A stretch of DNA of 38,142 bases from Bryobacterales bacterium (GTDB lineage Bacteria > Acidobacteriota > Terriglobia > Bryobacterales > Bryobacteraceae), in the NCBI GenBank assembly GCA_027450225.1, contig DAIDJK010000099.1:1-38142 (forward strand), in the 5' to 3' direction. Positions 25,496 to 35,903 of the stretch are shown here, piece by piece. The position numbers and the translations under genes were made by a program. Below the pieces are notes generated by a model, which saw only the letters and a list, made by a program, of their open reading frames with translations, made no database searches and was not told the DNA's origin. How positions within the stretch are numbered: the first letter of the stretch is position 1; the number at the start of each line of letters is the position of its first letter.

Positions 25496-25544
25496 CGCGA
25501 GTGGCGTTCCCCGGAAGGGGAAAGGGTGATATTGCCGCTCAGCG
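25496..25544 (+). promoter_or_regulatory. Structured RNA leader before wecA, unknown class
   Basis: A 10-bp outer stem can be drawn: CGCGAGTGGC (25496-25505) with GCCGCTC-A-GCG (25534-25544), with one G-U pair and one bulged A. It encloses a perfect 6-bp hairpin, TTCCCC (25507-25512) and GGGGAA (25517-25522), with a GGAA (GNRA-type) loop, and then an unpaired 11-base segment AGGGTGATATT (25523-25533). The only ribosome-binding-site-like sequence (GAGAAG, 25544-25549) touches the end of the outer stem. I recognise no known riboswitch class. It could control translation of wecA. Confidence 0.4.
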
Positions 25545-25557
25545 AGAAGTACCAGTA

Positions 25558-26997
25558 ATGGACTCATTGATCTGGCTCGGATCCGCTTCGTTTATACTCT
25601 GTCTGATTCTCACCCCGATTTTTCGGGATGTATTCCGTTCGTACGGCGTAGTCGATCAACCGGACCACGGCCGAAAAATTCATAAGTATCCGATCCCGAG
25701 GGTCGGTGGAATTGCGATCGCGATTTCTTACGTCGCGACGTTTTTCGTCGTTCAGCTGAAAACCGGCGTTCTGAATCAGCAGTTGGCGCTGGTCTGGAAG
25801 GTGCTGCCGGCGGCGGCCGTGATCTTTGCGATCGGCGTCATCGACGACCTTTGGGGATTGAAGCCGTGGCAGAAGCTGATAGGGCAGTTTCTCGCTTCGG
25901 TGATTGCCTGCGCGAGCGGCGTGCTGATCAACGATGTGATCGGGCTGCACTCCCATTCATGGTGGACCTATCCGATCACGGTAGTATGGCTACTCGCCTG
26001 TACCAATGCCTTCAACCTGGTCGATGGGATGGATGGCCTCGCGTCGGGCGTAGGCCTGTTCTCGACCCTGACCATATTCCTCGCCGCGCTTCTGAGTCAT
26101 AATGTTCCGCTCGAAATGGCGACGCTGCCGCTGGCGGGCTGTCTGCTCGGATTCCTCTGTTACAATTTCAACCCGGCGACAATTTTCCTCGGCGATTCCG
26201 GCAGCCTGCTCATCGGATTCGTTCTCGGTTGCTATGGGATCATCTGGACCCAGAAATCGGCCACGCTGCTCGGCATGACGGCGCCACTGATGGCGTTATC
26301 ACTGCCGCTGATCGATGTCGGTCTCGCGATCGTTCGCCGGTTTCTCCGCCGGCAGCCAATCTTCTCGCCCGATCGCGGTCAGATCCATCACCGGCTGCTC
26401 GATCGCGGCATGTCTCCGCGACAGGCGGCCGTGCTGCTCTACGGCATCTGCAGTATCGTCGCGGTACTCTCACTCCTGGTTTCGGTGGTGAAGAGCAACG
26501 GCGTTTCGGGGATTATCGTTTTGATGTTCTGCGCGGTCGCGTGGATGGGTATCCAATACCTCGGCTACGCCGAATTTTCGCTCGCCGGGAAATTGCTGTT
26601 TCGCGGCGACCTGCAGCGGACACTCAAGGCGCAACTCGATCTGAACGCTTTCCGCGAAGCCGTGGAGGGTACGAGGTCAGCTGAAACATGTGCGGCCCTG
26701 ATCCACAAGACGGCGGGCGCGTTCGGCTTCGAGCTGATTCAGACTTCGCTCGCAGGCGAGATATTCGCCTGGCCCCGAAGCTCCGGAAACGACGGATGGG
26801 CAGTGCGAATCCCGCTGGAAGACGGTGATTTCATCGAAATGCGCCGCGGATTCGACAAGAAGGAACTCGCCGCCACGGCCGGGCTCTTCATCGACGTGCT
26901 GAAGACAGCGGTGGATTACAGGCTGCCGGCGTTCCGCGCCGCACGGATGAAGTCGGCCGCCATCGGGCTGCCAAACTCGGGTCCGGCGATATCCTGA
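25558..26997 (+). CDS. wecA: WecA/MraY-like polyprenyl-phosphate N-acetylhexosamine-1-phosphate transferase with extra C-terminal domain
   Basis: A 479-residue membrane enzyme that starts glycan synthesis by moving a sugar-1-phosphate from a UDP-sugar to undecaprenyl phosphate. ATG 25558 is preferred over in-frame GTG 25501, which falls inside the structured leader. All superfamily motifs are intact: D96-D97 in GVIDDLWGLKPWQKL; NAFNLVDGMDGLA (150-162); FLGDSGS with D213; and the HH motif QIHHRLLDRG (H277-H278). About eleven membrane helices end near residue 335. The remaining 140 residues form a soluble domain that WecA does not have (GKLLFRGDLQRTLKAQLDL, VRIPLEDGDFIEMRRGF); I do not recognise it. 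The next gene, 19 bases on, encodes a degenerate enzyme of the other initiating-transferase family. Confidence 0.93.
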   Translation: MDSLIWLGSASFILCLILTPIFRDVFRSYGVVDQPDHGRKIHKYPIPRVGGIAIAISYVATFFVVQLKTGVLNQQLALVWKVLPAAAVIFAIGVIDDLWGLKPWQKLIGQFLASVIACASGVLINDVIGLHSHSWWTYPITVVWLLACTNAFNLVDGMDGLASGVGLFSTLTIFLAALLSHNVPLEMATLPLAGCLLGFLCYNFNPATIFLGDSGSLLIGFVLGCYGIIWTQKSATLLGMTAPLMALSLPLIDVGLAIVRRFLRRQPIFSPDRGQIHHRLLDRGMSPRQAAVLLYGICSIVAVLSLLVSVVKSNGVSGIIVLMFCAVAWMGIQYLGYAEFSLAGKLLFRGDLQRTLKAQLDLNAFREAVEGTRSAETCAALIHKTAGAFGFELIQTSLAGEIFAWPRSSGNDGWAVRIPLEDGDFIEMRRGFDKKELAATAGLFIDVLKTAVDYRLPAFRAARMKSAAIGLPNSGPAIS

Positions 26998-27016: not shown

Positions 27017-28345
27017 TTGATTCGCATTCCCAAGGCGCTTTTTCCCGAACGCGTCTCCATTCTCCTGTTCACGGAGCTGGTAATCGCATTCGTGTGCTTT
27101 CTCTCGGGGGCCGCGATCTTCGCCGGCCAGCTCGCTTTCGAACAGGGCGGACTGATCCGCATCATCATCGCGGCGTTCAGCGTCATCCTCGGAGGTTATT
27201 TGAATGGCCTTTACCGGGATCTCCGCTGGACATCGCGCGTCTCGCTGGTACTACACCTGTCGAGCGTGTTCGGCATCGCGCTGCTGATCCAGGGCCTCGT
27301 TTCGTACGCAGGGATCGGCCTGGAGTTGCCTCGCATGGCGATGCTGGGTGGAGCGGCGATCAATTTCGTGATCATGGCGATCTGGCGCGTGAGCTATGTG
27401 GTCCTGCTGAATCGCGTTTTCGCGACGGATCGCGTCCTGTTTCTGGGCGCCAGCGAAATGCTGCAGGAGATTGCCGAGGGAATCGCGAAACGCCCGCTGC
27501 TGGGATTCAAAGTTGTCGGGTATCTTTCCGACGATCATCGCCCCGGCGCGATGCTGGAGGGCGCACCCGTATTTGGCGGGACCGCTGCTCTGGAAGAAGC
27601 GATCCGGGTGCTCGCGCCGAAGCGCCTTATAGTGGATGATCAGCGCGATTTTCCTGTCCCCGTTCTTATTCGTGCGCGGCGCCACGGCGTTATTTTGCAG
27701 GATGCGGCGACCGCTTATGAAATCGTTTGGGGGCGTATCTGCTCGCGTACGTTCCGGCCGTCACAGATCATCTTTGCCGACGAACTGGCGCAGCGGCCGA
27801 CCTCGCTCGCCCTGCAATCGGTCTATACGAATCTCGTTGCGCTGGCGGCATACGTAATCAGCCTGCCCGTGCTGGTACTGGCTTCGCTGGCCATCCGGCT
27901 CACTTCGCGGGGGCCGGCTCTGTTGACGGAACAATATGCCGGCTTCAACGGCATTCCGTTTGCGGCAAGTCGGCTGCGCTGTACGGTGCAGGGGGACCCG
28001 ACGCGGGCAACCAGAGTCGGCGCGGTGATCCGCGCGCTGCATCTGGAATTTCTGCCCAGGGTGGTCAATCTCGTTCGGGGCGAAATGGCCATCGTGGGGC
28101 CTGAGCCGCAGAGAATCGAATTCGCCGAAGAGCTCTCGGCCCATATCCCCTACTACCGGCAGCGGCAGGTGGTGAAGCCGGGCTTTACCGGGTGGACTCA
28201 GATACAGGAAGCGCCGGGACTGGCCAGAGACGCGCTGCGCGATATCGAGTCCGATCTCTACTACACGAAGCATTTCTCGCTTGGCCTCGATGCTTATATC
28301 CTGCTGCACACGATTCGGGCGATATTACCGTTTCAGGACCGGTAG
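27017..28345 (+). CDS. Polyprenyl glycosylphosphotransferase (sugar transferase) with degenerate catalytic motifs
   Basis: A 442-residue protein from TTG 27017. Layout matches WcaJ/EpsB-type enzymes: four N-terminal helices (about 15-135), a nucleotide-binding-like domain (about 138-235: VLFLGASEMLQEIAEGIAKR, LLGFKVVGYLSDD), a membrane-inserting helix (about 270-293) and a C-terminal catalytic domain ending GFTGWTQIQEAP. The catalytic signatures are altered. The KFRSM region reads ASRLRC (317-322), the Asp-Glu dyad normally in LDELP is E344-F345 in LEFLP, and GPRP is GPEP (361-364). Structural motifs (NLVRGEMAIVG, IPYYRQRQVVKPG) persist and the frame is clean, so this is a conserved protein that is probably inactive or changed in chemistry, not a decayed gene. 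It follows the WecA-like gene in one operon. Confidence 0.88.
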   Translation: MIRIPKALFPERVSILLFTELVIAFVCFLSGAAIFAGQLAFEQGGLIRIIIAAFSVILGGYLNGLYRDLRWTSRVSLVLHLSSVFGIALLIQGLVSYAGIGLELPRMAMLGGAAINFVIMAIWRVSYVVLLNRVFATDRVLFLGASEMLQEIAEGIAKRPLLGFKVVGYLSDDHRPGAMLEGAPVFGGTAALEEAIRVLAPKRLIVDDQRDFPVPVLIRARRHGVILQDAATAYEIVWGRICSRTFRPSQIIFADELAQRPTSLALQSVYTNLVALAAYVISLPVLVLASLAIRLTSRGPALLTEQYAGFNGIPFAASRLRCTVQGDPTRATRVGAVIRALHLEFLPRVVNLVRGEMAIVGPEPQRIEFAEELSAHIPYYRQRQVVKPGFTGWTQIQEAPGLARDALRDIESDLYYTKHFSLGLDAYILLHTIRAILPFQDR

Positions 28346-28737: not shown

Positions 28738-29625
28738 CTATAACCACGGCGGCCGTCCAAAACGCCGGTGGAGACCGTCCCGCAGACCTTCGACTACCGC
28801 AGCGGTGTTCAGCCACGGCTTGCCGGTCCGCAGCGCCAGTCCCAGGTAGGTGGCTGCCAGCCGGAATGCGTTCAGCAGAAAATAACCGCGGCTGACCGGA
28901 ACCCCGTTTTCGCGAAGAATGTCGTACGTGAGGAACCGATTGCGCATGTGGAGATAGAACGCGTTGCGGCCCATTGTCGCTGCCGGTATTTGCTTTACGA
29001 TGCCGATGTGATCGATATAGATCACGCTCGCATGCATCGAGGCCAGGAGCCCGTACGCGGTGTCATCACCCGATATAAAGAAGCGCTCGTCGGGGAAACC
29101 GATGCGATCGATCACACAGCGCCGGATGAAGGCTCCTTCAAAGTTGCAATACTGAACAGGGAACCACTTTCGCCCGTGTTCGAATGCGGTTTCGCGCTCG
29201 AGCGTAAGCACGCCTCCGGCGGAAACATCCCAGATCGCCTGCCAGACAAGGGGCCCGTCCGGCATCATCTTGCGGGTTTGAATGATGTCGCCGACGTCCT
29301 GATACTGCAACATGGTCTCGAGGCAATCGGGCGTCACGCGGATGTCATCGTCCATCACCCACATCCATTCGAATCCGCGGCAGTGGGCCCACTGAATCCC
29401 GGCTTTGAAGCCGCCCGCGCCGCCGGAATTGTTCTGGAGGTTGAGCCGCGCCAGATTCGGAAATTCCGCGTCCAGCATCGCGCCGGTGCCGTCGGAGCAC
29501 GCGTTATCGACGACGACAATGAGGTCGAGAGGTCTGGTTTGTTCGAGAAGAGAGCGAAGGCAATTGCGGAGCAGGTCTTTGCGGTTGTAAGTGACGACGA
29601 CGGCGCAAATGCCGCCCTTCGTCAT
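28738..29625 (-). CDS. Family 2 glycosyltransferase, probable galactofuranosyltransferase
   Basis: A 295-residue GT-A enzyme. The N-terminus reads CAVVVTYNRKDLLRNCLRSL, nucleotide-sugar residues are in VVVDNACSDGTG, and the metal-binding triplet is D92-D93-D94 in WMWVMDDDIRV. This DDD form and the NNSGGAGGFKAGI segment resemble GlfT-like enzymes. ATG 29625 overlaps the stop of the UDP-galactopyranose mutase gene (ATGA), so the two are translationally coupled; the mutase makes UDP-galactofuranose, the likely donor. It has no membrane helix and should act on lipid-linked glycan at the inner membrane face. GT2 membership is certain; galactofuranose specificity is inferred from coupling. Confidence 0.88.
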   Translation of the reverse strand: MTKGGICAVVVTYNRKDLLRNCLRSLLEQTRPLDLIVVVDNACSDGTGAMLDAEFPNLARLNLQNNSGGAGGFKAGIQWAHCRGFEWMWVMDDDIRVTPDCLETMLQYQDVGDIIQTRKMMPDGPLVWQAIWDVSAGGVLTLERETAFEHGRKWFPVQYCNFEGAFIRRCVIDRIGFPDERFFISGDDTAYGLLASMHASVIYIDHIGIVKQIPAATMGRNAFYLHMRNRFLTYDILRENGVPVSRGYFLLNAFRLAATYLGLALRTGKPWLNTAAVVEGLRDGLHRRFGRPPWL

Positions 29626-30755
29626 GCCGATTCGCCGCGCGCGACCGAGTCCTCAAACAGCTTCAACGCCCGCGCCACTGCCTGATCCATGTTGTAGTAC
29701 TTGTAGTCGGCGAGCCTGCCCGCCAGAAGCACCGTCCCGTTCAACTTTTCCGCTTCCTGCAAATACAGATTGTATTGCTCGCGGTTCTCTTCGCGCGGGA
29801 TCGGATAGTAAGCTTCGTTCTCGCCGGGCATGTACGGCTGCGGGTACTCGTAAACCAGCGTGGAAACCGGAGAGCGCTGGCCCGTCAGGAATTTCTGCTC
29901 CGTGATGCGCGTGAAATCGTAATCGTTGGGATAGTTCACCGTGCCGGCGTCCTGCACGCGTTCCTGGTCAGCGGTCACGAAATCGAAGCGAAGGCTGCGG
30001 TACGGAAGATGCCCGTGCATGTAGTCGAAATAATCGTCGACCGGGCCGGTGTAGATCATGCGATTGAATTGGACCAGCCCGCCAAGTTCACGAACATCTG
30101 TGTTCAAGAGAACCCGGATATTCCTGTGGTTGAGCATGCGCTCGAACAGGGCTGAGTATCCGTAGCGCGGCATGGCTTGCCAGGTGTCCTGAAAATAGCG
30201 GTCGTCCCGGCTGATGTAGACGGGCACGCGACCGGTTACGGAAGGATCGAGCTCGTCCGGCTTTAGATCCCACTGCTTCACCGTGTAGTTGTAGAAGACG
30301 TTTTTGTAGATGTAGTCGGCCAGATTGCGCAGTTCCGTATTCGAGTTCTCGCGCATCTTGAGAATCGGCACCTTCACGCCGAATCCGTATGCTTCGAGCA
30401 GTGCGCATTCCAGCCTTTCGGCCATCCTCCGCGGGAACAGCATTTCGAGCGAGTTCAGATTAAACGGAACCGGAACGCGCTTGCCTTCGATGACGCCAAG
30501 CACGTGATGGTGATAGGGCCGCCATTCCGTGAAAGCCGAAAGATAATCCCAGACCTTCTTCGAATTGGTGTGAAAGATATGCGGCCCATACTTATGGACC
30601 AGGATGCCGTTCTTGTCGTAGTGATCGTAAGCATTGCCGCCGGTGTGGTTCCGGCGATCGATCAGCAGCACCTTCTGATCGAGTTGCGTGGCTATCCGCT
30701 CGGCCAGCGTGCAGCCCGTAAATCCAGCCCCTACAATGAGCCAATCGACTTTCAT
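29622..30755 (-). CDS. glf: UDP-galactopyranose mutase
   Basis: A 377-residue FAD enzyme interconverting UDP-galactopyranose and UDP-galactofuranose. The dinucleotide-binding motif is at the very start (WLIVGAGFTGCTLAERIA), followed by Glf signatures RRNHTGGNAYDHYD and YGPHIFHTNSKKVWDYL, FYNYTVKQWDLKPDEL, MIYTGPVDDYFDY, and YPIPREENREQYNLY with DYKYYNMDQAV at the C-terminus. Length is normal (about 370-390). ATG 30755 follows GGAAAAAG on the minus strand. It is coupled by ATGA to the downstream GT2 gene. It shows that the polysaccharide or another surface glycan contains galactofuranose. Confidence 0.97.
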   Translation of the reverse strand: MKVDWLIVGAGFTGCTLAERIATQLDQKVLLIDRRNHTGGNAYDHYDKNGILVHKYGPHIFHTNSKKVWDYLSAFTEWRPYHHHVLGVIEGKRVPVPFNLNSLEMLFPRRMAERLECALLEAYGFGVKVPILKMRENSNTELRNLADYIYKNVFYNYTVKQWDLKPDELDPSVTGRVPVYISRDDRYFQDTWQAMPRYGYSALFERMLNHRNIRVLLNTDVRELGGLVQFNRMIYTGPVDDYFDYMHGHLPYRSLRFDFVTADQERVQDAGTVNYPNDYDFTRITEQKFLTGQRSPVSTLVYEYPQPYMPGENEAYYPIPREENREQYNLYLQEAEKLNGTVLLAGRLADYKYYNMDQAVARALKLFEDSVARGESA

Positions 30756-30836: not shown

Positions 30837-32735
30837 TCAGTTGCACGAAATAGCCACCGAATCGAATGATTCCTGCCGTTCGAACCACAGTTCCAGCATC
30901 AGCAGGGACCAGAGCCAGGTGGTGTTGTTTCGTCTGCCCGATTCGTGTTCCTGAATCATGTTGCGCACAAACGCGGAAGAAGCGACGTCTCGCGAACGGA
31001 ACCGCCCACTCTCGATGCTGTCGCGCAACATCGGCCGCAGCGGACCGCGAAACCAGTCCGCGAGCGGTACGGCGAATCCCATTTTGGGACGATTGAGAAG
31101 TTCCGCCGGCAGACGGTCCTCGATTGCGCGAATAAAGATATCTTTGCCGCGTCCATTGCGCATCTTCCAATCGTGCGGAATCGTGGACGCCAGTGCAGCC
31201 AATTCGTGGTCGAGCATGGGGCAACGAACTTCGAGCGACGCCGCCATCGACATCCGATCCACCTTGACCAGCATGTCGCCGGAGAGTTTCGCGGTGGCTT
31301 CGAAGTACAAGGCCTGCGAGAGATCGCTCGCGCCATTCGGCAGAAAACAATCGGCAAGTTGCGATCGGATCCAGCGCGGGTCGGAGGGCAGGCGCCATTC
31401 GGGTTCGAGCATCCGGCGCCGCATCAGCGTGGGCGCGAAGTTGCTTTCCAGATAGCGCGAAACCGGGTCGGGCCGGCTGATCATGTAGAGATAATTTTTG
31501 CCGTAAGCCGAATACGGCAGCGCTGCAGCAATACCGGCAACAACGCGCCGCGCGGCCTGGGGCATCCGATTCCAGCGCCTCAGATTGCGCACGAGTTCGA
31601 AGCTCTCGTATCCGGCGAATAACTCGTCGCCACCGTCGCCGCTCAGCGCGACCTTCACGTGCCGCGCCGCGAACTCGGAAACAATGTAAGTCGGAATCGC
31701 GGACGAATCGGCGAACGGCTCATCGAAGTGCTCCACCAGCTTCCCAACCAGAGCTACGGAATCCGGCTTCACGATAATCTCGTGATGCTCCGTCCGATAC
31801 TTCTTCGCGACCATCGCTGCGTAAGGAAGTTCGTTGTAGGCAGCCTCTTCGAAGCCGATGGAGAAGGTTTTCACCGGCTGCTTCGATTGCAGCGCCATCG
31901 AAGCAACCACGGAACTCGAATCGATGCCGCCGCTCAGAAAGGCGCCGAGCGGGACATCCGCGATCATGCGGATGCGAACCGCTTCATCGAAGCTTTCGCG
32001 AATGTGCGCCATCGCCGCCTCGGGCGTCATGCCAGACTGCGGCGTCTCCGCCGGCGCGGGCAGACGCCAGTAACGGCCCGTTCGTATTTCACCCCGGTCA
32101 TCGTATTCAAGCCAGGTTCCGGGCGCGAGTTTATGGACGCCTTCAAACGCCGTGAATGGGTCCGGAATGAACGTAAACTGAAAGTAGAGCCGCAGAGCTT
32201 CCCGATCGGGGTTGAGCCGCAACCCCGCGGCCCGCAGGCACTTCAGTTCGCTGCCAAACCAGATGCCTTCCGGCCGAACCGAGTAGTAGAGGGGCTTTTT
32301 GCCGAAACGGTCCCGCGCCAGAAGGATTTTGCGGCGCTTCGCGTCCCAGATGCAGAATGCGAACATGCCCCGCAACCGTGAAATCCCTTCAGCGCCGAGT
32401 TCCTCATACAGGTGAAGAATGCATTCGGTATCGGTTTGCGTGCGGAACGAATGCCCACGCCCGATCAGCCATTCGCGCAGTTCGCGATATTCATAAATCT
32501 CGCCATTGAAGACGATCCAGACAGAACCGTCCTCGTTCGAAATCGGCTGGTGGCCAGTGGATAAGTCAATGATGCTGAGACGGCGCATGCCGATGGCGAG
32601 CGCGCCATCGATGTGATAACCCGCGTCGTCCGGCCCGCGATGGCGAATCGCATCGCACATCCGCCGTACGGTTTCGGAGCGAACGACCGCCTCTGGAGCG
32701 CCGTTCGGGAGAAAATACCCGGCAATTCCGCACAT
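30837..32735 (-). CDS. asnB: Asparagine synthase (glutamine-hydrolysing)-type amidotransferase
   Basis: A 632-residue class II amidotransferase. N-terminal glutaminase (1-210) with nucleophile C2 in MCGIAGYF, RGPDDAG, FNGEIYEYRELR and RGMFAFCIWD; then the synthetase domain with the PP-loop LSGGIDSSSVV, FDEPFADSSAIPTYIVSEFA, LSGDGGDELFAGY, and VDRMSMAASLEVRCPMLDHEL. All motifs are intact. Free-standing asparagine synthase would need no polysaccharide context, but closely related paralogues are common inside exopolysaccharide and exosortase-associated loci, where they are thought to amidate a sugar acid or glycan. Both remain possible. ATG 32735 lacks a clear Shine-Dalgarno sequence. It lies 81 bases upstream of glf on the same strand and is divergent from the heparinase-like gene. 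Confidence 0.92.
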   Translation of the reverse strand: MCGIAGYFLPNGAPEAVVRSETVRRMCDAIRHRGPDDAGYHIDGALAIGMRRLSIIDLSTGHQPISNEDGSVWIVFNGEIYEYRELREWLIGRGHSFRTQTDTECILHLYEELGAEGISRLRGMFAFCIWDAKRRKILLARDRFGKKPLYYSVRPEGIWFGSELKCLRAAGLRLNPDREALRLYFQFTFIPDPFTAFEGVHKLAPGTWLEYDDRGEIRTGRYWRLPAPAETPQSGMTPEAAMAHIRESFDEAVRIRMIADVPLGAFLSGGIDSSSVVASMALQSKQPVKTFSIGFEEAAYNELPYAAMVAKKYRTEHHEIIVKPDSVALVGKLVEHFDEPFADSSAIPTYIVSEFAARHVKVALSGDGGDELFAGYESFELVRNLRRWNRMPQAARRVVAGIAAALPYSAYGKNYLYMISRPDPVSRYLESNFAPTLMRRRMLEPEWRLPSDPRWIRSQLADCFLPNGASDLSQALYFEATAKLSGDMLVKVDRMSMAASLEVRCPMLDHELAALASTIPHDWKMRNGRGKDIFIRAIEDRLPAELLNRPKMGFAVPLADWFRGPLRPMLRDSIESGRFRSRDVASSAFVRNMIQEHESGRRNNTTWLWSLLMLELWFERQESFDSVAISCN

Positions 32736-32911
32736 TTGCTGTGAGCGGCCGCAGGCGGCGCTTCTTTATCCTATGCTACTTATGGGCTTCGGGGCCGCTT
32801 GGAACCGCGCGGTTTTGCGCGCCAGCGTACTTCCATGCTCATTAATCGCACCTGCCGTGTTTCGTTTTGATTCAGGAAGGAACGCCAGCCCGGGCCCAGG
32901 GAGACTCGCCG

Positions 32912-34795
32912 GTGCGTAGCCCCGCCGAAATCGGTTTCCGGCTTCGTCAGGAGACACTGAACGCGTCCCGGCTGCTTCACATTCCGAAGCTGACGCTCAC
33001 CGAGCCGCTAACCCCGCGACCCATTCTTCCCGATCCGGCGGATTGCGCCAGACTGGCGCGCGACAAGCGCTATGCAATCGAGCTCTCCGATATCGCGGAA
33101 CAGATTCTGCATCACCGCTTTCCCCTCTTCGACCAGACCATCGAAACCGGTCCCGATATCGACTGGCTGCGCGATTACCACAACGGCAAATCGAGCGCGC
33201 TGAAGTTCTTCCGCCGCGTTCCATATCTCGATTTCAATGCCGTCGGCGACCACAAGTGGATCTGGGAGCTGAACCGGCATCAGCATCTGATCGTGCTCGC
33301 GCAGGCGTATCTGCTGACCGGGCGCGCCGAATTTCTGCGCGAGATCGAGCGGCAGATTGAAAGCTGGATCGTGCAGAATCCGTTCGCGCGCGGCATCAAC
33401 TGGGCGAGCGCGCTCGAAGTCGCATTCCGGGCGCTTTCGTGGATCTGGGTGGATCATCTGGTGGGCGCCGAGATCGCTCCGCCCTCACGAATCCGGCTGC
33501 AGCAATCGTTGTGGCAGCATGCCCGGCATCTGGAATCGAACCTCTCGGTCTACTTTTCGCCGAACACGCACCTGCTGGGCGAAGCGCTCGCGCTCTACGC
33601 GATCGGGCGGCTTTATCCCGCTATGCCGCGCGCCGAACGCTTTGTCGAGACAGCGCAGCCGATCGTGGAACACCAGCTCGAGTTTCAAGTTCGCTCCGAC
33701 GGCAGCCATTTCGAGCAATCGACTTATTACCACGTGTACGCGCTCGACATGTTTTTGCTGTATTACCTGCTGGCCGAGCGCCCCGAACGGATGAACGCAA
33801 AGCTGCGAGCAATGGCGCGTTATCTGGATGCGATTGCGGGGCCTGCCCGGCTGTTGTTTTCTTCGGGCGACGACGACGGCGGGCGGCTCTTCTATCCTTA
33901 CGGCGAACGTAACCGCTTCTGCCGCGCCACGCTCGCCACCTGCGCCAATCTGTTTCCCAATCTCGGCTTCGAGTGCTGCCCGAAGGATGTTCAGCAGCAG
34001 GCCGCGTGGTGGATCGGCCCCGGCATCCGGCTGAGCGCCGAGCGCCGCTCCGGGCGTTCGGGCCACGTGGCGTTTCACGGCGCAGGGATGGTGGCGCTCG
34101 AAGCCGGCGAGATTCATGCTCTCTTCGATGCCGGCCCATTCGGCTGGGGCGGCGCCGGACACAGCCATGCCGACTCACTGAATCTGCTGATTCGCAAAGG
34201 CGAACAGACCGTTCTCGAGGACCCCGGCACTTTCACCTACGTCGGCGATGCCGAGGCGCGCAACTGGTTTCGCGGAACCGCGGCGCACAATACCCTCCGC
34301 ATCGACGAGCGCGATCAGGCCGATCCCGTGAAACCCTTCCGCTGGGCGAAAAAACCCTCCGTCCACCTGATCCGTTCGGGAGACGCCTACGCCGACGCGC
34401 GCTGCGAATACCGCGGATTCACCCATCGCCGGCGGGTGCTTCTGTGCGGCGAACGCGCCTGTATCGTAGTGGACGACGTGGATGCAACGATGGGCGAGCA
34501 CCTGGTCGAGCAGTTCTGGAATATCAGCAACGCAGCGCTGGTTACGTCGAGACCAGGCGGGACCGAAACGGTGTGGCGATCACGCGTGTATGGTTCACGA
34601 GAGAAGATGAATCGCGCGATCGTCCGGGTACTCGGCCCTCTGCCCGTGCGCCTCGTGACTGCGATCCTGTTCGACGGCGAAACCTCGGAAATGCAGATAG
34701 AAGGCAGCATGGTTCGCGTCAACGGAATCGTCGCGACCTTCCGCGATGACGACGCGCCCACCTGGAGGCTCGAAGCGGTTGAGCCCCCCGAATAG
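32912..34795 (+). CDS. Heparinase II/III-family protein (polysaccharide lyase fold)
   Basis: A 627-residue protein. GTG 32912 is chosen because AGGGAG (32898-32903) lies 8 bases upstream and the product then starts RSPAEIGFRLRQE, like relatives; TTG 32867 is the longer alternative. Residues about 20-340 form the helical toroid (DYHNGKSSALKFFRRVPYLD; WELNRHQHLIVLAQAYLL; SWIVQNPFARGINWASALE) and about 360-625 the beta-sandwich domain with GAGHSHADSLNLLI, LEDPGTFTYVGD and RGTAAHNTLRID. Heparinase II/III proteins cleave uronate-containing polysaccharides by beta-elimination; members in exopolysaccharide loci are thought to trim or turn over the polymer. No signal peptide is visible, so location is unclear. 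The following GT4 gene overlaps its end. Confidence 0.88.
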   Translation: MRSPAEIGFRLRQETLNASRLLHIPKLTLTEPLTPRPILPDPADCARLARDKRYAIELSDIAEQILHHRFPLFDQTIETGPDIDWLRDYHNGKSSALKFFRRVPYLDFNAVGDHKWIWELNRHQHLIVLAQAYLLTGRAEFLREIERQIESWIVQNPFARGINWASALEVAFRALSWIWVDHLVGAEIAPPSRIRLQQSLWQHARHLESNLSVYFSPNTHLLGEALALYAIGRLYPAMPRAERFVETAQPIVEHQLEFQVRSDGSHFEQSTYYHVYALDMFLLYYLLAERPERMNAKLRAMARYLDAIAGPARLLFSSGDDDGGRLFYPYGERNRFCRATLATCANLFPNLGFECCPKDVQQQAAWWIGPGIRLSAERRSGRSGHVAFHGAGMVALEAGEIHALFDAGPFGWGGAGHSHADSLNLLIRKGEQTVLEDPGTFTYVGDAEARNWFRGTAAHNTLRIDERDQADPVKPFRWAKKPSVHLIRSGDAYADARCEYRGFTHRRRVLLCGERACIVVDDVDATMGEHLVEQFWNISNAALVTSRPGGTETVWRSRVYGSREKMNRAIVRVLGPLPVRLVTAILFDGETSEMQIEGSMVRVNGIVATFRDDDAPTWRLEAVEPPE

Positions 34796-35903
34796 CGCGC
34801 GCCGCGCGCCGGTTATGCTGCTGTGCCACACCCTCGGCATCGGCGGCAGCGAACGGCAACTCACGGAAACCGCCAGGGCGCTCGATCCCGAACGCTTCGA
34901 AGTTCACGTTGGCGCGTTTCACGCTAAGGGCCTGCGCGCGGACGATTTGTTTTCTGCCGCCATTGCGGTCGCCGAATTCCCCGTTCGCTCGTTCGGCAAC
35001 GCGAGTCTGCCCAAAGGCGCGCTGGCCTTCCGCCGGTATGTAAAACAGCACGGAATACGGCTGCTCCATTCTTTCGATGTTCCGCTGAACATCTTCCTCG
35101 CGTTCTCGTTTCCGCTGCATCCGCGGCCGGTGATGCTCACCAGCCAGCGCGGCCACCGCAGCCTCTCGCCCGCGCTGCATCGGAATCTGGTTCGCCTCTC
35201 GGATCGCTTTACGGACGGCATCGTGGTCAACTGCGAATTCATGAAGCGGCATCTCATCGAAGACGAGCACGTCGCGCCGGCGCTCATCGATGTCTGCTAC
35301 AACGGCATCGACACGGAACGCTTCACGCCCGCTGATCGCGCATCTGCCGATGGCCCGCCGCGTATCGGCGCCGTGTGCGCGCTTCGCCCCGAGAAGGACC
35401 TGCCAACGCTCCTGCGCGCCTTCGCGCTGGTGCGCGTGGCATACCCGGATGCGCAACTGCTGATCCTCGGCAGTGGACCGGAACTGCCGAAGCTTCAATC
35501 CCTGGCCGAGGATCTGGCACTCGGCGGCGCGATCGAATTCCAGCCAGCCACCGCAGACGTCATCCCCTCGCTGCGCCGCATGGACGTGTTCGTTCTACCG
35601 TCGGTTTCCGAAGCGCTCTCGAACGCTCTGATCGAGGCCATGGCATGCGGCGTATGCCCGGTCGCCTCGAGCGTAGGCGGCAATCCGGAACTCGTGGGCG
35701 AGAACGAGCGCGGCCTGCTTTTTTCACCGGGCGATGTCGATGATCTCGCGCGAACTCTTCGGCGCCTCATCGCGGACCCCGTCGAACGGCGGAGCAAGGC
35801 CTCGACCGCCCGCGCGTGGATCGCGCAGAATCTTTCGATCGCGGCCTCCGCGAATCGCATGGCCGCCATCTACGAAAGACATCTGGCGCGCGCCGGTGTA
35901 TGA
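34779..35903 (+). CDS. Family 4 glycosyltransferase (GT-B fold)
   Basis: With TTG 34779 (GGAGG at 34764-34768, 10 bases upstream) the protein has 374 residues and overlaps the heparinase-like gene by 17 bases. ATG 34815, just before LLCHTLGIGGSERQL, and ATG 34746 are alternatives. GT4 features: the N-terminal glycine-rich GIGGSERQ loop; YNGIDTERFTPAD; the nucleotide-sugar region IGAVCALRPEKDLPTLLRAF; and the C-terminal EALSNALIEAMACGVCPVAS with the two spaced glutamates, then GNPELVGENERGLLF. It transfers a sugar from a nucleotide donor to a lipid-linked glycan at the inner membrane. Donor and acceptor are unknown. Membership is clear and the protein is complete. Confidence 0.92.
   Translation: MSPPNSARRAPVMLLCHTLGIGGSERQLTETARALDPERFEVHVGAFHAKGLRADDLFSAAIAVAEFPVRSFGNASLPKGALAFRRYVKQHGIRLLHSFDVPLNIFLAFSFPLHPRPVMLTSQRGHRSLSPALHRNLVRLSDRFTDGIVVNCEFMKRHLIEDEHVAPALIDVCYNGIDTERFTPADRASADGPPRIGAVCALRPEKDLPTLLRAFALVRVAYPDAQLLILGSGPELPKLQSLAEDLALGGAIEFQPATADVIPSLRRMDVFVLPSVSEALSNALIEAMACGVCPVASSVGGNPELVGENERGLLFSPGDVDDLARTLRRLIADPVERRSKASTARAWIAQNLSIAASANRMAAIYERHLARAGV

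Follow-up and report, generated by a model that had tools for sequence, protein, structure and literature searches.

A conserved monotopic PGT with a dead active site is encoded beside an intact WecA-like enzyme in Bryobacterales

The window analyzed here, a stretch of 38,142 nucleotides of Bryobacterales DNA, contains a gene for a large monotopic phosphoglycosyl transferase (PGT; monoPGT) with a dead active site, located directly downstream of a gene for an intact WecA-like polytopic PGT. Comparison with its relatives strongly supports that this protein, termed pseudo-PGT, is a conserved pseudoenzyme. We consider it fairly likely that the two genes form an initiation module, in which WecA would carry out the chemistry and pseudo-PGT would serve a non-catalytic role in docking, assembly, or control.

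Table 1. Positions of the genes and protein features in the window
Feature	Position	Strand	Details and basis
WecA-like polytopic PGT (GT4-type, Glycos_transf_4)	25558..26997	+	PF00953, 133 bits
Pseudo-PGT, large monoPGT with dead active site	27017..28345	+	442 aa, TTG start; PF02397, PF13727
Transmembrane four-helix bundle (predicted), residues 11-134	27047..27418	+	Helices 11-41, 45-62, 74-98, and 106-134 in the model; hydropathy
Rossmann-like cytoplasmic DUF (CoA_binding_3), residues 138-239	27428..27733	+	Pfam, AlphaFold model
Re-entrant membrane helix of PGT domain, residues 261-296	27797..27904	+	Kink Pro P284 retained; alignment, AlphaFold model
RLRCT (R319-L320-R321-C322-T323), KFRSM equivalent	27971..27985	+	Lys59 to Arg, Met63 to Thr; alignment
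Mobile substrate loop	27986..28018	+	Shortened to 11 residues (22-24 in nearly all active relatives); alignment
R339, equivalent of PglC Arg88	28031..28033	+	Retained in the window protein; alignment
E344-F345 in place of catalytic Asp-Glu dyad	28046..28051	+	Translation, alignment to PglC/WbaP
GPEP in place of GPRP	28097..28108	+	Arg112 to Glu (E363); translation, alignment to PglC/WbaP
Small one-helix membrane ORF, 104 aa	28414..28728	+	Beside pseudo-PGT in L037, L039, L040, and L115; beside active PGT in L183
GT2 glycosyltransferase, GlfT1-like	28738..29625	-	Profile matches
UDP-galactopyranose mutase	29622..30755	-	TIGR00031, 422 bits, over cut-off
Asparagine-synthase-like amidotransferase, XrtA/PEP-CTERM EPS type	30837..32735	-	Profile matches
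Heparinase II/III-like protein	32867..34795	+	Profile match
GT4 glycosyltransferase	34746..35903	+	Profile matches

Domain composition and active site of pseudo-PGT

The start of the pseudo-PGT gene lies 19 bases after the stop of the WecA-like gene, and the translation of ORF 27017-28345 includes FAASRLRCTVQGDPTRATRVGAVIRALHLEFLPRVVNLVRGEMAIVGPEPQRIEF. Pfam analysis of this ORF detected Bac_transf (PF02397, 106.6 bits) and CoA_binding_3 (PF13727), both above the gathering scores, and the score for NCBIfam TIGR03025 was 208.9, which is under the cut-off of 295.6. The AlphaFold model, built with a 46-sequence input, had a pLDDT of 91.2 and a pTM of 0.84. A Foldseek search with the model matched PglC (8e37; TM 0.82, rmsd 2.1) and also WbaP (8t53). 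The transmembrane bundle, PF13727, and PF02397 with the re-entrant helix place the protein in the large monoPGT fold family, an assignment of homology and not of function, and the modelled fold is of the intact PglC/WbaP type. The earlier note on this DNA had also described the fold-defining motifs as kept.

The same domain order and fold are found in WbaP, WcaJ, and EpsZ (TIGR03025 EPS_sugtrans, TIGR03013 XrtA EpsB_2; PF02397 and PF13727), namely a transmembrane bundle, a CoA_binding_3-like DUF, the re-entrant helix, and the PGT domain. Unlike these large monoPGTs, pseudo-PGT has no catalytic dyad, Lys59, full substrate loop, or GPRP Arg, and its NCBIfam scores fall under the cut-offs. The catalytic D93-E94 of PglC (8e37) and WbaP align to E344-F345, so that the Asp-Glu dyad of active PF02397 enzymes is missing. 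The other features of active members are likewise replaced: Lys59 by R319, the GPRP Arg by E363, and the mobile loop, which closes over the UDP-sugar and directly follows RLRCT, by a segment of 11 residues. The roles of these residues were taken from previous work on monoPGTs (PMC12802240, PMC10519829, PMC12550135). Translation and alignment to PglC and WbaP confirmed the changes of the dyad to E344-F345 and of GPRP to GPEP that the earlier note had reported. Its reading of the KFRSM equivalent as SRLRC began one residue early; the aligned motif is RLRCT, in which Lys is changed to a conservative Arg.

Two further candidate features were considered. PglC Arg88 contacts polyprenyl phosphate (PMC10519829), and the idea that the dead proteins still bind this lipid through the equivalent Arg was weakened, since the residue is kept in 5 of 8 window-clade members and in 3 of 23 other WecA-adjacent homologues. 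The loss of the D-X12-P Asp as a sign of altered topology was dropped because active relatives are also without this Asp.

Comparison with dead and active relatives

Homologues were searched for in 61 close genomes, 237 genomes of the family, 299 of the class, and a collection of 84,980 species; the phylum search covered 396 genomes with WecA as the query. In the species collection, the single window protein gave no matches when used as the query, and an alignment-based query gave homologues. Residues were compared in PglC numbering between 46 dead and 24 active relatives, and a wider set of about 53 dead and 87 active PGTs was then classified. A few rows that were misaligned when sequences were added to an alignment were read by eye.

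All 24 active relatives contained K59, M63, R88, D93, E94, and R112. Among the 46 dead relatives, in contrast, E94 and K59 were absent from every sequence (Arg replaced K59 in 39), whereas M63 was found in 2, D93 in 10, and R112 in 27, and the loop was 3-19 residues long. The wider set was split in the same way, with the dyad Glu and Lys59 gone in every dead protein and present in every active one. The substitutions are far beyond chance, as the same positions are invariant in the 24 active relatives compared. The dead relatives retained the fold positions P24, P96, G110, P111, G135, D157, and mostly D169. At the dyad positions they carried T, V, A, E, D, N, G, F, and other residues, and at the old site the 46 aligned sequences had no acid, nucleophile, or metal ligand in common that might act instead.

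The loss of the active site was common to relatives down to about 30% identity and was therefore not confined to the window sequence; such confinement was one of the results that the earlier note had named as fatal to its proposal. Pairwise dN/dS (NG86) was 0.11-0.34 for the dead copies and 0.11-0.13 for the active copies, and the PGT domain was the best-conserved portion of the WecA-adjacent dead copies. Thus, loss of catalytic residues across the lineage is accompanied by purifying selection. The claim that all three signatures are replaced holds for the window protein and not for the family, given the D93 and R112 retained in part of the dead relatives. Within one genus, G063 (L379, C247) encodes a PGT with KFRST, the active dyad IDELP, and an already short loop, and G061 (L349, C194) encodes one with IDDLP and Lys59 lost; these two PGTs may represent stages of active-site loss.

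Linkage to the WecA-like gene

The WecA-like ORF is open from a GTG at 25501, and translation more likely starts at the ATG at 25558. Its motifs DD, NxxNLxDGxDGL, FLGDSG, and HIHH are all intact in the window, in agreement with the earlier note, and in the partners compared. About 110 residues at the C terminus of the protein (window 26600-26997) form an extension without a match in Pfam; WecAs of the family that have no PGT neighbour are of a length similar to that of the window protein.

At least 31 genomes from 11 genera and 2 families had an intact WecA-like gene followed directly by a gene for a dead PGT (29 detected by script, together with G019 and G084, which have overlapping frames and were identified by eye). 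Adjacency to a WecA-like gene was a check that the earlier note had proposed. G265 (L291), which belongs to a different family of the class, showed the same arrangement. None of the 87 classified active PGTs lay directly downstream of a WecA gene, and one lay directly upstream of a WecA (L166/L380). In the scan of the species collection, all 7 dead loci were WecA-adjacent, and no WecA homologue flanked any other PGT locus retrieved. The record titles were Acidobacteriota/Bryobacterales except for one labelled Nevskia soli, which matches the family genome G082. The WecA matches outside the family obtained in the phylum search (L311, L312, L314, and L315) had no PGT alongside. Two records, L198 (NZ_CAJCHS010000180.1, titled Nevskia soli) and L201 (DYJN01000079.1, titled Arcobacter sp.), contain Bryobacterales-type PGTs, and the Nevskia soli label of the former is probably wrong.

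The partner WecAs formed one clade (99*), and their branching largely followed the dead-PGT tree, as expected for a co-inherited pair. The dead PGTs formed a single group with an SH-aLRT of 89 when all columns were used. When the motif columns were removed, three changes were found, and the p-AU for a single dead group was 0.415, so that on these alignments a single origin of the dead PGTs is neither proven nor rejected. Since a single loss of the dyad is not proven, the 31 pairs are to be read as a deeply conserved linkage and not as 31 independent events.

Gene cluster, replacement by active PGTs, and second dead PGT

The window gene set fits an exopolysaccharide cluster, as UDP-galactopyranose mutase, the GlfT1-like glycosyltransferase, the XrtA-type amidotransferase, the heparinase-like protein, and the GT4 glycosyltransferase are encoded together. 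Three members of the partner WecA clade without a dead neighbour were informative (G011, G009, and G181); the WecA of G212 lies at a contig edge and was not counted. Each of the three genomes encodes an active EpsB-type PGT that has the dyad motif LDELP and is 54-57% identical to the active probe L015. An active relative this close is missing from most of the genomes that carry the pair; G199, G062, G063, and G265 are exceptions, having the pair and an active PGT of the broad type. In G011, the active PGT gene has the small ORF/GlfT1-like GT2 on one side and an acyl-CoA dehydrogenase gene on the other, and at the syntenic locus of G082 (L115) a dead PGT and WecA are found instead. Judging from these active PGTs and the syntenic locus, initiation in this cluster seems to be provided by either of two alternative modules, the WecA and pseudo-PGT pair or a single active monoPGT.

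A second dead PGT was encoded just upstream of clpS in exactly 6 of the 237 family genomes, and all 6 fall among the 8 genomes with the window-type pair (hypergeometric value 1.2e-10, which assumes independent genomes, although they are not). These copies, L052 (1598-3010 of contig C130 in the genome of the window itself), L054, L055, L051, L308, and L309, scored 631-684 bits, the next match being 476, and their dyads read LDRYP, LGSWP, LENWP, and similar. In nine other genomes the position before clpS was taken by an active PGT. In many of the other module genomes the second dead copy is a different one and is often convergent with the first, and only one dead copy was seen in G032, G082, G204, G205, and G210. 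In many congeners (L041, L043, L044, and L046-L050), the order is WecA, dead PGT, and GT2, and a second dead PGT gene runs convergently to the GT2 gene, so that one glycosyltransferase is flanked by two dead PGTs. WbaP is active as a homodimer and has a regulatory DUF (PMC10942596); by analogy, two dead PGTs might form a heterodimer, which is a reasonable hypothesis.

Discussion

Judged by its sequence and model, pseudo-PGT is a true pseudoenzyme that has given up the covalent Asp-Glu chemistry and retains the membrane anchor, the cytoplasmic domain, and the PGT fold. In the proposed module, WecA would transfer the first sugar phosphate, presumably HexNAc-phosphate, onto polyprenyl phosphate. 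Being related to the usual monotopic initiator of the pathway, pseudo-PGT may retain the non-catalytic job of that protein and, through a putative contact with WecA, would tie the WecA product to the exopolysaccharide pathway as an assembly, docking, or control subunit. It might also dimerise with the second dead PGT that is usually encoded in the same genome. We infer this partner role from comparative sequence data. WecA does not strictly need pseudo-PGT, since WecA homologues of the clade exist without it, and the four genomes that carry both the pair and an active PGT count against the module. A physical complex across the two superfamilies, in which the active polytopic PGT would catalyse and one or two dead monotopic PGTs would serve for docking or control, with one job split between unrelated folds, is possible but should be regarded as tentative. 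The pseudoenzyme interpretation of the earlier note is upheld by the conserved losses, the purifying selection, and the adjacency to WecA. The roles that the note named for the protein (regulating, recruiting, or flipping the product of its neighbour, or new chemistry) are candidates, of which new chemistry is the less likely.

The role of the dead proteins could instead be regulatory, with the window protein and the clpS-linked or type-B copy forming a heterodimer that senses the UDP-sugar or the lipid carrier and switches WecA. Two dead PGTs are present in most module genomes, WbaP provides the precedent of a dimer with a regulatory DUF (PMC10942596), and the dimerisation of EpsZ is under the control of a non-catalytic partner (PMC12802240). 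However, the residues and loop of the UDP-sugar site are lost, which makes donor sensing doubtful, and five genomes have a single visible dead copy; we regard this explanation as rather unlikely. A remodelled pocket that uses other residues for a different reaction, for instance on the WecA product, would account for the PGT domain still being the best-conserved portion of the dead protein, and would be in line with the invariant H342 beside the old dyad and the frequent E344 in the window subclade. New chemistry of this kind appears improbable, as the dead group as a whole shares no residue that could stand in for the catalytic ones.

That the protein is still a normal PGT, with Glu344 as the nucleophile in place of Asp, would be compatible with the Glu found at this position in 5 of 8 window-clade members, but the dyad Glu has been lost too, together with Lys59, Met63, the loop, and in many cases the GPRP Arg (roles in PMC12802240, PMC10519829, and PMC12550135), and judged from these positions such activity is very unlikely. 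Sequencing error or recent pseudogene decay might be suspected because the most conserved sites are those hit, and G061 (IDDLP) beside G063 (IDELP) in one genus resembles a late intermediate. Given that the frame is open in dozens of species, that selection is purifying, that the same sites are lost in all, and that gene order is kept, this is scarcely credible, and for the window clade it is refuted by the comparative data. The module of a working WecA with a non-catalytic pseudo-PGT is thus the explanation that we prefer.

The monoPGT fold, WecA, pseudoenzymes, and non-catalytic control of an initiating PGT (PMC12802240) are already known. The closest likeness is the EpsW-EpsZ system of Myxococcus xanthus (PMC12802240), in which the initiating step is probably controlled by a non-catalytic protein; that protein, however, is a response regulator and its target an active monoPGT, whereas in Bryobacterales the suspected helper is itself the dead monoPGT, encoded next to a polytopic PGT. 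The gene adjoining pseudo-PGT encodes an intact member of the WecA/MraY superfamily (PF00953) with its catalytic motifs present, and this superfamily has a fold unrelated to that of monotopic PGTs and is normally uncoupled from their genes. Searches of the open-access literature yielded neither an inactive PGT of such a kind nor a conserved pair of an active polytopic and a dead monotopic PGT, an absence that speaks only weakly for novelty.

It is unclear what the non-catalytic parts of large monoPGTs do (PMC10942596). A lineage that has lost catalysis and kept the fold, next to a foreign initiator in many genera, is a natural experiment that isolates the non-catalytic function. It makes testable whether monoPGTs have, apart from catalysis, a role in assembly or control, and by what means a WecA-type enzyme is tied to one particular exopolysaccharide pathway. 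As the dead PGT follows a working WecA across genera and its fold is under selection, these results suggest that Bryobacterales, which are soil bacteria, have kept a dead enzyme as a helper or docking part.
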